From Hypericibacter adhaerens (GTDB taxonomy: Bacteria > Pseudomonadota > Alphaproteobacteria > Dongiales > Dongiaceae): a stretch of 64,000 nt of DNA. Each line of letters opens with the position of its first letter. Position 1 is the first letter of the stretch. Shown piece by piece: positions 6,877 through 56,644 of the stretch. The position numbers and the translations under genes are program-made. The stretch covers positions 3,437,001-3,501,000 of the forward strand of contig NZ_CP042582.1 of NCBI RefSeq assembly GCF_008728835.1, read 5' to 3'. The notes under the pieces are model-generated. The model had not been told where the DNA came from. It was given only the letters and a program-made list of their open reading frames with translations, and did not search any database.

Positions 6877-6967
6877 CCCCTCTCCCGCGTGCGGGAGAGG
6901 GTCAGGGAGAGGGCTGCACCGACCGAGCAGCCCCCTCCCTTGCCCTCCCCCGTTCCGGGGGAGGGGA
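6877..6967. repeat. Double-hairpin G/C-rich palindrome (copy R1)
   Basis: Two hairpins face each other: a 10-bp stem at 6879-6900 (CCTCTCCCGC/GCGGGAGAGG) and a second at about 6943-6965 (CCTCCCCC/GGGGGAGG). Between them is a central inverted repeat GCTGC-ACCGACCGA-GCAGC flanked by AGGGAGAGGG and CCCCCTCCCT. The whole unit is nearly palindromic. The copy at 31439 has the same centre with one base difference in 21. It lies between topA and the cupin gene. There is no U-tract, so it is not a classical terminator. Confidence 0.85.
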
Positions 6968-21813: not shown

Positions 21814-22060
21814 GCCCCCTCCCCTTGCGGGAGGGGGTAGGGGGAGGGGTGCGGCGCACGCTCTTCAACGGGAAGAACCCATCCTTCGCAGTCTTGTCGG
21901 AGAACTGGAGCGAGCAGGAACTGAAGGAAATGTCTGCAACAAGCGTGGTCCTTCGCCAACAGCACGCCTGCGTCCTCCCTCCCCCTACCCCCTCCCGCCC
22001 CGCGCGCTGTGCGCGCTTTCTTTGGGTTCGCCGGCGAAGCCGGCATGGGAGGGGGCTGGA
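21814..22060. repeat. Composite inverted repeat between ROK gene and dinB (R3)
   Basis: A 20-bp exact inverted repeat, GGGAGGGGGTAGGGGGAGGG at 21829-21848 and its complement at 21977-21996, encloses about 128 bp of ordinary-looking sequence. Outside the left arm is a hairpin (CCCCTCC...GGAGGGG) like those of the other palindromes. On the right, CGCGCGC-TGT-GCGCGCG-type and GCCGGCGAAGCCGGC hairpins and a final GGGAGGGGGCTGG are stacked up to the dinB start. No gene with family similarity lies inside. Confidence 0.75.
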
Positions 22061-23365: not shown

Positions 23366-23426
23366 GTTACCCTCGCCCCGCACTTGCGGGGAGAGGGAGG
23401 GACCCGCAAAGCGGGAGGGTGAGGGG
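23366..23426. repeat. Left 61-bp terminal inverted repeat of the DUF559 element
   Basis: This 61-bp sequence matches the complement of 23795-23855 in 58 of 61 positions. It contains two hairpins, CCCCGC-ACTT-GCGGGG and CCCGC-AAA-GCGGG. All three mismatches to the right copy lie in hairpin loops, so every stem is intact on both sides. Confidence 0.9.
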
Positions 23427-23461
23427 CTTGCAGCGTCGCGCAGTCATATCATAACGGTGTA

Positions 23462-23794
23462 ATGGATAGAAGTTTCTCCAAAAAGTTGCGCCAAAACCCG
23501 ACCGAAGCCGAGGACAGACTTTGGCAGGCCTTGCGGTCACGCCGGTTCGAGAACACGAAGTTCCGACGGCAAGTCCCGATTGGGCCTTATGTCGTCGATT
23601 TCGTTTGCCCGGCGGCGAAGCTCGTCATCGAAATCGACGGAAGCCAGCACGCCGATAATGTCGAGTACGATACGCGCCGCTCGGAATTTCTCGCCGGCAA
23701 GGGCTATCGCGTCATCCGGTTCTGGAATAACGACGTTCTCCAAAGCCTCGATGGCGTCTATCAAGCCATCGAGATCGCGTTTCGCGGCGACTGA
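23462..23794 (+). CDS. DUF559 (Vsr-like/PD-(D/E)XK) endonuclease-fold protein
   Basis: A 110-residue protein of the DUF559 family, which has a very-short-patch-repair-like nuclease fold. Visible marks are MDRSFSKKLRQNPTEAEDRLWQALR with Glu15, FRRQVPIGPYVVDFVCP with Asp46, LVIEIDGSQH with Glu57 and Asp59, and the GYRVIRFWNNDV end motif. The arrangement E...D-X10-E-x-D is compatible with metal-dependent DNA cleavage. Biological function is unproven for this family. The ATG at 23462 lies 35 bp after the left inverted repeat; TATCAT at 23447-23452 could be a -10 element. It is less GC-rich than its neighbours. Confidence 0.88.
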   Translation: MDRSFSKKLRQNPTEAEDRLWQALRSRRFENTKFRRQVPIGPYVVDFVCPAAKLVIEIDGSQHADNVEYDTRRSEFLAGKGYRVIRFWNNDVLQSLDGVYQAIEIAFRGD

Positions 23795-23855
23795 CCCCTC
23801 ACCCTCCCGCTGCGCGGGTCCCTCCCTCTCCCCGCAAGAGCGGGGCGAGGGTAAC
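23795..23855. repeat. Right 61-bp terminal inverted repeat of the DUF559 element
   Basis: It starts immediately after the DUF559 stop codon, with hairpins CCCGC-TGC-GCGGG and CCCCGC-AAGA-GCGGGG. It is the inverted partner of 23366-23426. The outer ends are GTTAC (left copy, start) and GTAAC (right copy, end), exactly complementary. Confidence 0.9.
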
Positions 23856-23875: not shown

Positions 23876-24715
23876 TCAGCAGCTCGGCTTGGGCAGGGTC
23901 TCGATCTTGGAGAGAGTGCCGAGGATCGAGAACTCGCCGTAATCGAGCACGAGGCGGTCGACCACGCCGTTGGCATAGAGGCGCAGGCTCTGCTCATGCT
24001 CGGGCTCGGCCGTCTCGCCCTTGGGGGCGTAGAAGGCGAGCGACACGTTCCAGCCGGGCACGCCCTTGAGCTCGCGGCGCTGGTCGGCCTCCTTGCGCGC
24101 GGCCTCGGGCAGAGGCGTGATCGCGGCGCTAACGGCGAAGAGCCCGTCCTGGTCCGAGCCGTCGAACACCTCCGCCCAGAGCATGGGCGTGCCCTTCATC
24201 GCCTGCTCGATCAGCACCAGGCTGTGCTGGGTGGGGAACAGGCTGCCGGCGGGCAGCGCCGTGTCATGGGCCTGCGGCTTGTTGTAATGCGCCTTGCCGC
24301 CGCTCTTGGAGAGGTCGGCATCGCCCCGGTACTCCGCGGTCACTTCCCCATTGGTCAGCTCGCGCGAGACGAAGCGGTAGTGGGTCCCGTCCTTCGATTC
24401 CCAGGAGGTCAGGCTCCAGCCCACCCGGGCGGCATCGCCGCTGGTATAGAGGAAGTCCATCTGCGAGCGCTGGGTGACGCTCCAGCCGTCGCAGGAATCC
24501 TGCCACTCGAAGGCCATTTCCCCTTCGACATCCGCGATATCACCGCCGCTCTTGAGGATTTGCATGTGGTAAAGCGCGCGGTGCGGCAGCGGGTCGACCA
24601 TGGCGGCCCGAACCGCCCCGGAACCGAACGCCGCACCCAGGCAAATGAAGGCCGCCCCGAGCCAAAGGGACCGGGCGAGGCCATGCCAAAGAGGGCGGGA
24701 AACGAGCGCTGACAT
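23876..24715 (-). CDS. eipB: EipB (DUF1849) periplasmic cell-envelope integrity protein
   Basis: A 279-residue secreted protein with a signal peptide at about 1-37 (hydrophobic GAAFICLGAAFG, then AVRA). The mature part matches the DUF1849/EipB family: HRALYHMQILKSGGDIADVEGEMAFEWQDSCDGWSV, YTSGDAARVGWSLTSWES, and LYANGVVDRLVLDYGEFSILG. EipB of Brucella is an eight-strand beta-spiral with a conserved disulfide between a Cys in the DSCDGW region and a Cys at the C-terminus. Here Cys75 and the terminal Cys279 fit that pair. Its role is maintenance of the outer envelope. The ATG is at 24715. It is convergent with dinB and the DUF559 element. Confidence 0.9.
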   Translation of the reverse strand: MSALVSRPLWHGLARSLWLGAAFICLGAAFGSGAVRAAMVDPLPHRALYHMQILKSGGDIADVEGEMAFEWQDSCDGWSVTQRSQMDFLYTSGDAARVGWSLTSWESKDGTHYRFVSRELTNGEVTAEYRGDADLSKSGGKAHYNKPQAHDTALPAGSLFPTQHSLVLIEQAMKGTPMLWAEVFDGSDQDGLFAVSAAITPLPEAARKEADQRRELKGVPGWNVSLAFYAPKGETAEPEHEQSLRLYANGVVDRLVLDYGEFSILGTLSKIETLPKPSC

Positions 24716-25803: not shown

Positions 25804-25902
25804 CTCCTCCCCCGTTCCGGGGGAGGATCAAGGAGGAGGCTGCTCGCCATCAGAAACCGAGCAGCCCTCTCCCTGACCTTCTCCCGCAGCACGGGAGAGG
25901 GG
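25804..25902. repeat. Double-hairpin G/C-rich palindrome (R5)
   Basis: The first hairpin is CCTCCCCC-GTTCC-GGGGGAGG (25806-25826); the last is CTCCCG-CAGCA-CGGGAG (25881-25897). The centre is CTGCTCG...CGAGCAG with AGGAGGAGG on one side and CCTCTCCCT on the other. It is the reverse orientation of R1 with a longer centre. It lies between two convergent genes. Confidence 0.85.
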
Positions 25903-31438: not shown

Positions 31439-31529
31439 CCCCTCCCCCATCTTTTGGGGGAGGGTTAGGGAGGGGGCTGCTCGGTTGGTGCAGCCCCCTC
31501 CTCAATCCTCCCCCGCAAGCGGGGGAGGC
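31439..31529. repeat. Double-hairpin G/C-rich palindrome (R6)
   Basis: The first hairpin is CCCTCCCCC-ATCTTTT-GGGGGAGGG (31440-31464); the second is the perfect 10-bp stem CCTCCCCCGC-AA-GCGGGGGAGG (31507-31528). The centre is GGCTGCTCGGTTGGTGCAGCC, whose complement differs from the R1 centre by one base in 21. It lies between two convergent genes, the M23 peptidase and ppx. Confidence 0.88.
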
Positions 31530-56504: not shown

Positions 56505-56545
56505 GACGAATAGCAGCGGCGTCCCCTCTCCCGCCATTACCTAAT

Positions 56546-56644
56546 CCCCTCCCCCTTGATGGGGGAGGGTAAGGGAGGGGGTGGGGCCGCAAACGAGATC
56601 CATGATCGCCCCCCGCCCTAACCCTCCCCTCAAGGGGGGAGGGG
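56546..56644. repeat. Double-hairpin G/C-rich palindrome (R7)
   Basis: The first hairpin is CCTCCCCC-TTGAT-GGGGGAGG (about 56548-56568); the second is CCCTCCCCT-CAAG-GGGGGAGGG (about 56623-56643, one mismatch). GGGAGGGGGTGGGG and its approximate inverse CCCCCCGCCC flank a centre unlike R1. Before it, GTCCCCTCTCCCGCC (56521) may be a fragment of another copy. It lies between convergent rsmA and gmk. Confidence 0.82.

Follow-up and report, generated by a model that had tools for sequence, protein, structure and literature searches.

The window analysed here, a stretch of 64,000 nucleotides of Hypericibacter adhaerens DNA, contains a gap of 517 bp between dinB (end 23358, + strand) and the next gene, eipB (23876-24715, - strand), both of which carry putative names assigned by an earlier reader. 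The gap holds a unit of 490 bp, in which a single DUF559 gene lies between two inverted copies of a 61-bp repeat (Table 1). The earlier note on this DNA had described copies identical at 58 of 61 positions with differences confined to loops, and recomputation gave exactly this result; its account of the 110-residue gene, of the right repeat that begins directly behind the stop codon and of the length of the gap agreed with ours. The mismatches, at repeat positions 17, 43 and 44, all fall in the loops of two hairpins, CCCCGC-ACTT/TCTT-GCGGGG and CCCGC-AAA/GCA-GCGGG, where the slash separates the two copies. When folded as single-strand DNA, the left repeat formed both hairpins (-19.3 kcal/mol, z -3.94), and none of 200 shuffles was as stable. 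The inverted-repeat score of the unit was 52, compared with a maximum of 13 among 1,890 random places of similar spacing in the window. The GC content and GC3 of the DUF559 gene (56.8% and 71%) are lower than those of dinB (69.6% and 92%) and eipB (67.4% and 88%), as expected for an incomer. Further copies of the triplex motif (TM) that makes up most of each repeat occur elsewhere in the window, including three gene-less inverted pairs of 89-97 bp with inward third arms that by eye resemble the TMs flanking another DUF559 gene of this genome (L012).

Table 1. Positions in the window of the 490-bp unit, its parts and other TMs
Feature	Position	Strand	Remarks
Gene-less inverted TM pair, dispersed, satellite-like	6878..6966	.	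Another TM family
Single TM upstream of dinB	21815..21848	+	Arms match those of the TMs around L016, the frameshifted DUF559 gene
Left terminal repeat, 61 bp	23366..23426	+	GTTA plus class II triplex motif; gene-ward order Y, loop, R, second hairpin, H
Y (pyrimidine) arm CCCTCGCCCC, left repeat	23370..23379	+	
R (purine) arm GGGGAGAGGG, left repeat	23388..23397	+	Single G/A mismatch with Y, shared with the TM beside E. coli K-12 ycjD
Second hairpin CCCGC-AAA-GCGGG	23403..23415	+	Inside the R-H loop
H (reverse-Hoogsteen) arm GGGTGAGGGG	23417..23426	+	R arm mirrored, one A replaced by T
DUF559 PD-(D/E)XK nuclease gene, 110 aa	23462..23794	+	E57-x-D59-G-x-x-H63 intact
Right terminal repeat, 61 bp	23795..23855	-	Left repeat inverted; TM 23795-23851 plus 4 terminal bases
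Gene-less inverted TM pair, dispersed	25805..25901	.	
Gene-less inverted TM pair, dispersed	31440..31528	.	
TM hits overlapping on both strands	56524..56581	.	

Read towards the gene, each repeat consists of a Y arm (CCCTCGCCCC), a loop, an R arm (GGGGAGAGGG), a small hairpin and an H arm (GGGTGAGGGG). The final ten bases of each repeat mirror the purine arm in a triplex code, a feature that the earlier note had overlooked together with the four further DUF559 genes of the genome. In a class II purine-motif intrastrand triplex, G is placed on G.C and either A or T on A.T (PMC4666352), and the repeat has both the Y-R-H order of this class and an H arm that mirrors R under the G.GC, A/T.AT code. 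Its loops of 8 and 19 nt are longer than the 1-6 nt used in the ITxF search for triplex motifs (PMC4666352), and we therefore regard it as a variant of the BoxC/PIT/TM motif. Single strands carrying the E. coli form of this motif are reported to fold into a triplex in vitro, and Holder et al. saw none in vivo (PMC4666352).

The triplex code was then examined in 309 purine-arm hairpins, which were gathered without regard to the code in the sequences flanking 186 distinct DUF559 domains and compared with the next 50 bases. With A/T exchange allowed, the tail contained a perfect mirror of the purine arm in 131 of the 309, a direct copy in 54, a reverse complement in 15 and a complement in 7, and shuffled tails gave 0 to 2. 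Without A/T exchange, perfect mirrors and direct copies numbered 23 and 13, respectively. Among the 276 asymmetric arms, the mirror was the better match in 133 and the direct copy in 29, with 114 ties. In 165 elements that had all G matched at one offset and were aligned on G alone, the third-arm base opposite A was A in 206 cases, T in 139, G in 26 and C in 15, while A+T made up only 37% of whole tails. A purine-motif third strand requires mirror symmetry with A/T exchange, which simple duplication does not predict. A competing hairpin, in which the tail pairs with the pyrimidine arm, was rejected as the general rule because it needs the direct copy of the R arm, which was outnumbered by the mirror, although some elements fit both.

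DUF559 is a widespread nuclease family whose function is little settled. The window gene matched it (PF04480) with an E value of 2e-40 and 137.5 bits, the Pfam gathering score being 20.6, and the only Pfam domains in the protein were DUF559 and MTES_1575, with no HUH/Y1 domain. Fourteen residues were invariant in 48 aligned sequences including YcjD, among them E17, Q37, D46, E57, D59 and H63, which we presume to include the likely catalytic ones. The predicted structure of the protein (AF2, pLDDT 85.1) had as its top match 3hrl, NGO0050 of Neisseria gonorrhoeae (Foldseek E 3.8e-7), which was also matched by the sequence profile of these proteins. The second match was the catalytic domain of the homing endonuclease I-Bth0305I (3r3p; Foldseek E 3.1e-5), for which there was also a weak sequence match (E 2e-4), and the third and weaker one was Vsr (1vsr; Foldseek E 7e-3). 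In sequence, the protein scored 23.4 bits against the Vsr family, below the cut-off of 97.85. The model thus has the fold of a PD-(D/E)XK nuclease, with the candidate catalytic residues intact; the likely active site is kept, and known relatives cut DNA. N. gonorrhoeae is counted among the TM-rich species by Holder et al. (PMC4666352).

The H. adhaerens genome has five DUF559 genes in all, the window gene and four more, which are associated with five different TM families. One of them is frameshifted: at G000:C1:1510905-1511212 (L016, L017), the gene is split over two frames between TM pairs, and an open copy (L246) occupies the same site in the sister species. Phage or plasmid carriage was considered as a vehicle and rejected, since relatives of the window protein (E 1e-5) were found in only 45 of 72,556 plasmid records and 3 of 50,697 phage records, indicating that they are mainly chromosomal. 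On three cyanobacterial plasmids (L258, L259, L260), DUF559 genes adjoin genes annotated as DUF499, DUF1156 or PglX, which we take to be of defence type. TMs were not found in two of these loci (L258, L259), and some DUF559 proteins may thus have another role.

The same motif lies beside a DUF559 gene in E. coli. In K-12, ycjD is annotated as DUF559, and the MG1655 sequence next to it reads CCCTCGCCCC TCT GGGGAGAGGG TTA GGGTGAGGGG, so that all three arms and the mismatched Y-R position are those of the window repeat. This motif is known as BoxC, PIT or TM-ECO, and MG1655 has 23 TM-ECO, ten of which form five inverted pairs (PMC4666352). Holder et al. write that activities providing mobility were never found around TM-ECO sites, and they report no functional class for the flanking genes; the words 'nuclease' and 'Vsr' are absent from the main text of their paper (PMC4666352). 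In the three E. coli strains examined, the ycjD TMs were on the 3′ side only, and the 5′ side has an AT-rich palindrome in place of a TM. The fabI-sapF interval (L098, L247-L252) holds ycjD or an efflux operon, depending on the strain. The ycjD-less strains were tried as empty sites and set aside: four of them have regulator and RND efflux genes there, the eefRABCD operon (PMC12817139), and the presence/absence comparison is therefore not clean.

The earlier note had proposed to look for inverted repeats around DUF559 genes in other genomes, and in two samples the association went far beyond chance. The first consisted of the 80 best relatives that the window protein has among GTDB species genomes, plus the DUF559 genes of H. 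adhaerens itself. Inverted repeats scoring at least 18 flanked DUF559 in 71 of 84 loci (including L052, where the repeat is a run of N; one of the 85 loci could not be scored) versus 1 of 422 shifted controls. A TM lay within 250 bp of DUF559 in 78 of 85 loci and an inward-facing pair in 59, and the remaining 411 kb contained 40 TMs. Inward pairs were present in loci titled Dehalococcoidia (L051), Nitrospinota or Nitrospinae (L058, L052), Legionellaceae (L034) and Gammaproteobacteria (L074). Our finder detected no TM near the genes of L029 (Anaerolineales), L092 (Chloroflexi), L050 and L086 (both Gastranaerophilales), the last of which still has a strong inverted repeat.

The second sample came from a Pfam search of 199 genomes of the same phylum as the window, and its selection was independent of likeness to the window. 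It comprised 89 loci among the matches listed, namely the 29 best matches and 60 from listed places; one further DUF559 domain was left out as too close to the locus end. A TM was found within 250 bp of 84 of 93 DUF559 domains, leaving nine without a detected TM; only 46 had both TMs facing inward, and 10 had an outward pair. None of 306 control genes in these loci had an inward pair. Any TM was present near 15 of 190 distant control genes versus 67 of 116 genes that lie no more than 600 bp from DUF559 and border on the gap it occupies, and an outward pair was present in 5 of the latter. Elsewhere in these loci there were 74 TMs in 526 kb. When loci of equal size were compared, TMs occurred in 27 of 28 DUF559 loci, 0 of 29 Vsr loci and 0 of 12 Y1_Tnp loci, after one of 29, one of 30 and five of 17, respectively, had been dropped by length. 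The Y1 transposase profile (PF01797) had no match in the H. adhaerens genome.

In the 112 loci with both TMs, the two R arms of the same gene were 0.94 identical, compared with 0.78 for random combinations. Likeness between repeats followed likeness between proteins modestly (Mantel r 0.25, with 0 of 2,000 permutations as high), and 85% of 79 pairs with protein identity of at least 70% shared the R arm. This co-variation is weaker than the other evidence, because some of the pairs are orthologues at one site.

TM hairpins are also dispersed in genomes, and their copy number was linked to the presence of the gene. Among the 199 genomes, 62 have a strong DUF559 hit (E<=1e-10), and the 137 others include 18 with weaker hits. 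At least two copies of the hairpin CCCTCTCCC-N2-9-GGGAGAGGG were found in 43 of the 62 and in 10 of the 137. The DUF559-bearing genomes of genus label g14 had 0 or 1 copy, which led to the prediction that they carry another DUF559-adjacent hairpin, with R arm GGGGGAGA, and this was borne out: the hairpin TCTCCCCC-N2-8-GGGGGAGA, which resembles that of a Sinorhizobium locus (L257), numbered 90, 187, 88, 128, 143, 5 and 18 copies in G051, G055, G071, G117, G143, G155 and G157, that is, 88-187 copies in five of these seven genomes. At least two copies of it occurred in 15 genomes, 14 of which have strong DUF559 hits, and a third TM hairpin reached two copies in 8 genomes, all with strong DUF559 hits. 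Taken together, at least two copies of any of the three hairpins were present in 52 of 62 genomes with and 10 of 137 without strong DUF559 (Fisher p 2e-27), a count that does not represent independent events because the genomes are related.

All three hairpins were lacking in 10 of the 62 strong-DUF559 genomes. Conversely, the 10 of 137 genomes that carry hairpins without a strong DUF559 hit have up to 57 copies (G054), and in four of them (G054, G158, G049 and G018) there are 12-57; gene loss or another mobiliser may account for such cases. In H. adhaerens, the TM family of the window unit also forms an alternating tandem array resembling a BIME (L003, at about 1846684-1847136 of G000:C1).

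The dinB-eipB junction was compared in 29 eipB loci of relatives. In 20 of these dinB adjoined eipB, and DUF559 was present in none, so a dinB-DUF559-eipB order kept vertically without repeats, which the earlier note had named as evidence against its proposal, was not encountered. In L196 and L197, the stop codons of dinB and eipB lie within about 10 bp of each other. Among units with these arms, the nearest (L238 of genome G200, whose protein is 59% identical) is located at a different site, and the dinB-eipB locus of G200 (L190) has neither DUF559 nor TM. Homology between the window unit and L238 covered 453 bp at 66% identity, started exactly at an outer TM edge in both and stopped 35 and 16 bp short of the TM edge at the other end; the flanks were unrelated. 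Two units in the sister species G199 (L237 and L244; protein 87% identical) aligned over 442 bp, with ends 2-14 bp past the TM edges and unrelated flanks, and in three other unit pairs the alignment ended within 11 bp of the TM edges. In most of the 1,518 unit pairs without flank homology, divergence kept the alignment from reaching the TMs; both flanks were shared by 153 pairs and one flank by 7. Up to 10 DUF559 matches were found per genome, and the sampled paralogues were mostly <60% identical, with pairs at 84-90% in G117, G157 and G199.

Neither a target-site duplication nor a clean empty site at strain level turned up among the units and loci compared. Dispersed TM pairs in 204 kb of H. 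adhaerens and 240 kb of the sister species were searched for target duplications, but the gaps were too diverged and the edges undefinable. Azospirillum chromids were likewise tried as strain-level empty sites and set aside, as the seven records holding at least 80% of the query held 99-100% of it, unit included.

The explanation that we consider probable is that DUF559 is the cognate nuclease of a minimal, slowly mobile element with TM ends, of which the 490-bp unit is one copy and the dispersed TM pairs are satellites. It draws on the pairing in several phyla, the mirror-coded ends, the edges at TMs in the closest copies, the lack of the unit at the orthologous site in relatives, the different junctions that units occupy in the hpa operon of Deinococcus (described below), the invariant residues and the copy number. 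The nuclease would recognise its own TM on a G-rich strand that has become single-stranded and has folded into a hairpin plus third strand, and would cut at the base of the folded TM. Repair or rejoining of the break would then copy or insert TM pairs often, as satellites, and the whole unit rarely; copies no longer mobile would stay where they are, possibly including ycjD of E. coli. Points against this explanation are the lack of target-site duplications and clean empty sites, the outward arms and one-sided TMs in Deinococcus, the one-sided ycjD, the TM-less domains, the domains without an inward pair, the outward pairs of five neighbouring control genes, the exceptions to the copy-number link, the triplex not seen in vivo and the modest co-variation. 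Our search of the literature, which took in few subscription papers and no preprints, found no publication linking DUF559 to BoxC/PIT/TM repeats. The broader proposal, on which we find the balance even, is that DUF559 nucleases mobilise BoxC/PIT/TM repeats independently of RAYTs by recognising three-stranded folded ends, spreading up to hundreds of satellites per genome.

A homing-type selfish gene is an unlikely alternative source of the same arrangement. DUF559 would cut intergenic DNA that lacks the unit, perhaps at existing TM sites, and recombination between TMs would copy the gene in, the TMs being passive homology arms rather than folded substrates. The structural match to the I-Bth0305I catalytic domain suits this model, as does the dinB-eipB gap of G199, the only relative with a TM pair there; that pair is gene-less but belongs to a different TM family, and the mirror symmetry of the tail plays no part in the model. 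The hpa operon of Deinococcus also argues against it. In strain NW-56, a unit lies antisense between an oxidoreductase gene and hpaE, a junction at which the genes overlap by 4 bp in D. deserti, D. ficus and D. radiophilus, leaving no room for a prior TM. In D. proteolyticus and D. wulumuqiensis, a unit lies instead between hpaB and the oxidoreductase gene, and the DUF559 gene of D. wulumuqiensis is annotated as a shorter one of 162 bp. The third arms of the Deinococcus units point outward, and our finder placed TMs on either side of the unit in D. proteolyticus but on a single side in NW-56 and D. wulumuqiensis. Outside the TMs of L261, L265 and L268 there are additional inverted repeats or small hairpins that vary by locus, such as GGCCAGCGTTGCTG in D. 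proteolyticus, and these outer repeats are possibly derived from the target.

A still less probable reading is that DUF559 is a Vsr-like or structure-resolving repair nuclease kept for the host, with the adjacent TMs as regulatory sites or targets. In Caulobacter, VsrA, which has a DUF559 domain, is linked in function to a cytosine methyltransferase and, in cells, to a DNA damage response (PMC12907096). Two of the five DUF559 loci of H. adhaerens, moreover, are at the same sites in the sister species (L012/L242 and L016/L246), which indicates that any movement is slow. The absence of TMs from all 29 Vsr loci speaks against host repair, and the patchy presence, differing sites, atypical GC3 and edges at TMs suit mobility better. 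Coincidence, in which TMs spread otherwise and gather in loose gaps that also house DUF559 genes, would agree with the TMs elsewhere in the same loci and with the ten genomes that have hairpins without strong DUF559, but it is highly improbable and largely contradicted by the controls: these lack inward pairs, TMs of the same gene match each other, TM copy number is linked to DUF559 presence, and H. adhaerens has no Y1 transposase match.

Under the explanation that we prefer, a TM-ended element with DUF559 as its nuclease, joining DUF559 and TM repeats gives each a candidate partner, and both can be tested in E. coli K-12. Our results suggest that the DUF559 family is the missing partner that spreads TM repeats; if true, DUF559 as a TM mobiliser would account for the orphan triplex repeats found in E. 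coli. They also suggest at least two separate origins of REP-like genome repeats, from enzymes unrelated to each other. Should DUF559 read DNA folded into a triplex, it would provide a natural example of a structure-specific nuclease for sequences resembling H-DNA.

Compared with known systems, the window repeat is closest in its DNA to BoxC/PIT/TM-ECO, which it resembles in the class II Y-R-H order, the arms, the mismatch, the intergenic site and the inverted pairs. The second loop of the E. coli motif is 3 nt, whereas that of the window repeat is 19 nt and contains a hairpin, and the window repeats enclose a nuclease gene. Vsr mismatch endonuclease shares the fold of the window protein but differs far in sequence, and the Vsr loci examined are without TMs. 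The fold is likewise shared with I-Bth0305I, whose 3r3p family we take to be EDxHD; its chain has E-V-N-G in place of the E-x-D-G of DUF559, and the following H is missing. Homing endonucleases sit in an intron, an intein or an interrupted gene, whereas the window unit is intergenic, between dinB and eipB, and its protein is a catalytic domain only, with its own inverted repeats at the unit ends. IS200/IS605 elements combine a HUH transposase with subterminal hairpins, and the window unit is without a HUH domain.

The RAYT/TnpA-REP system (REP, BIME, REPIN) shares with the unit a gene edged by inverted palindromes, dispersed satellites and an alternating tandem array, and shares with DUF559 and TMs generally a repeat abundance tied to gene presence (52/62 vs 10/137). 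The RAYT enzyme, however, is a HUH/Y1 tyrosine enzyme and that of the window unit a PD-(D/E)XK nuclease. REP is a GTAG-tagged hairpin, whereas the window repeat is a triplex motif that begins GTTACCCTCG and has no GTAG-type tag. RAYT enzymes cleave the folded single-stranded repeat; their genes are mostly single copy and show no evidence of mobility, whereas a DUF559 genome can have several unrelated units and some diverged duplicates, and the window unit has a counterpart at a different site in G200. In E. coli, a stem bulge is an identity mark for REP and its enzyme (PMC8266576), and the extra hairpin and conserved mismatch of the window repeat may serve as such marks. The earlier suggestion of a nuclease-palindrome pair, mobile or domesticated, that parallels RAYT/REP is supported by the association and the relatives, with two corrections: the repeat is of BoxC/PIT/TM rather than GTAG-tagged REP type, and the enzyme is not a RAYT. 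With both the HUH/Y1 enzyme and the GTAG tag absent, the system is not RAYT, though it works like REP/RAYT. We know of no repeat-mobilising system with a DUF559-type enzyme or with TM-type DNA ends, and because enzyme and ends are both unlike those of any known system of this sort, the DUF559-TM partnership would be new in kind.
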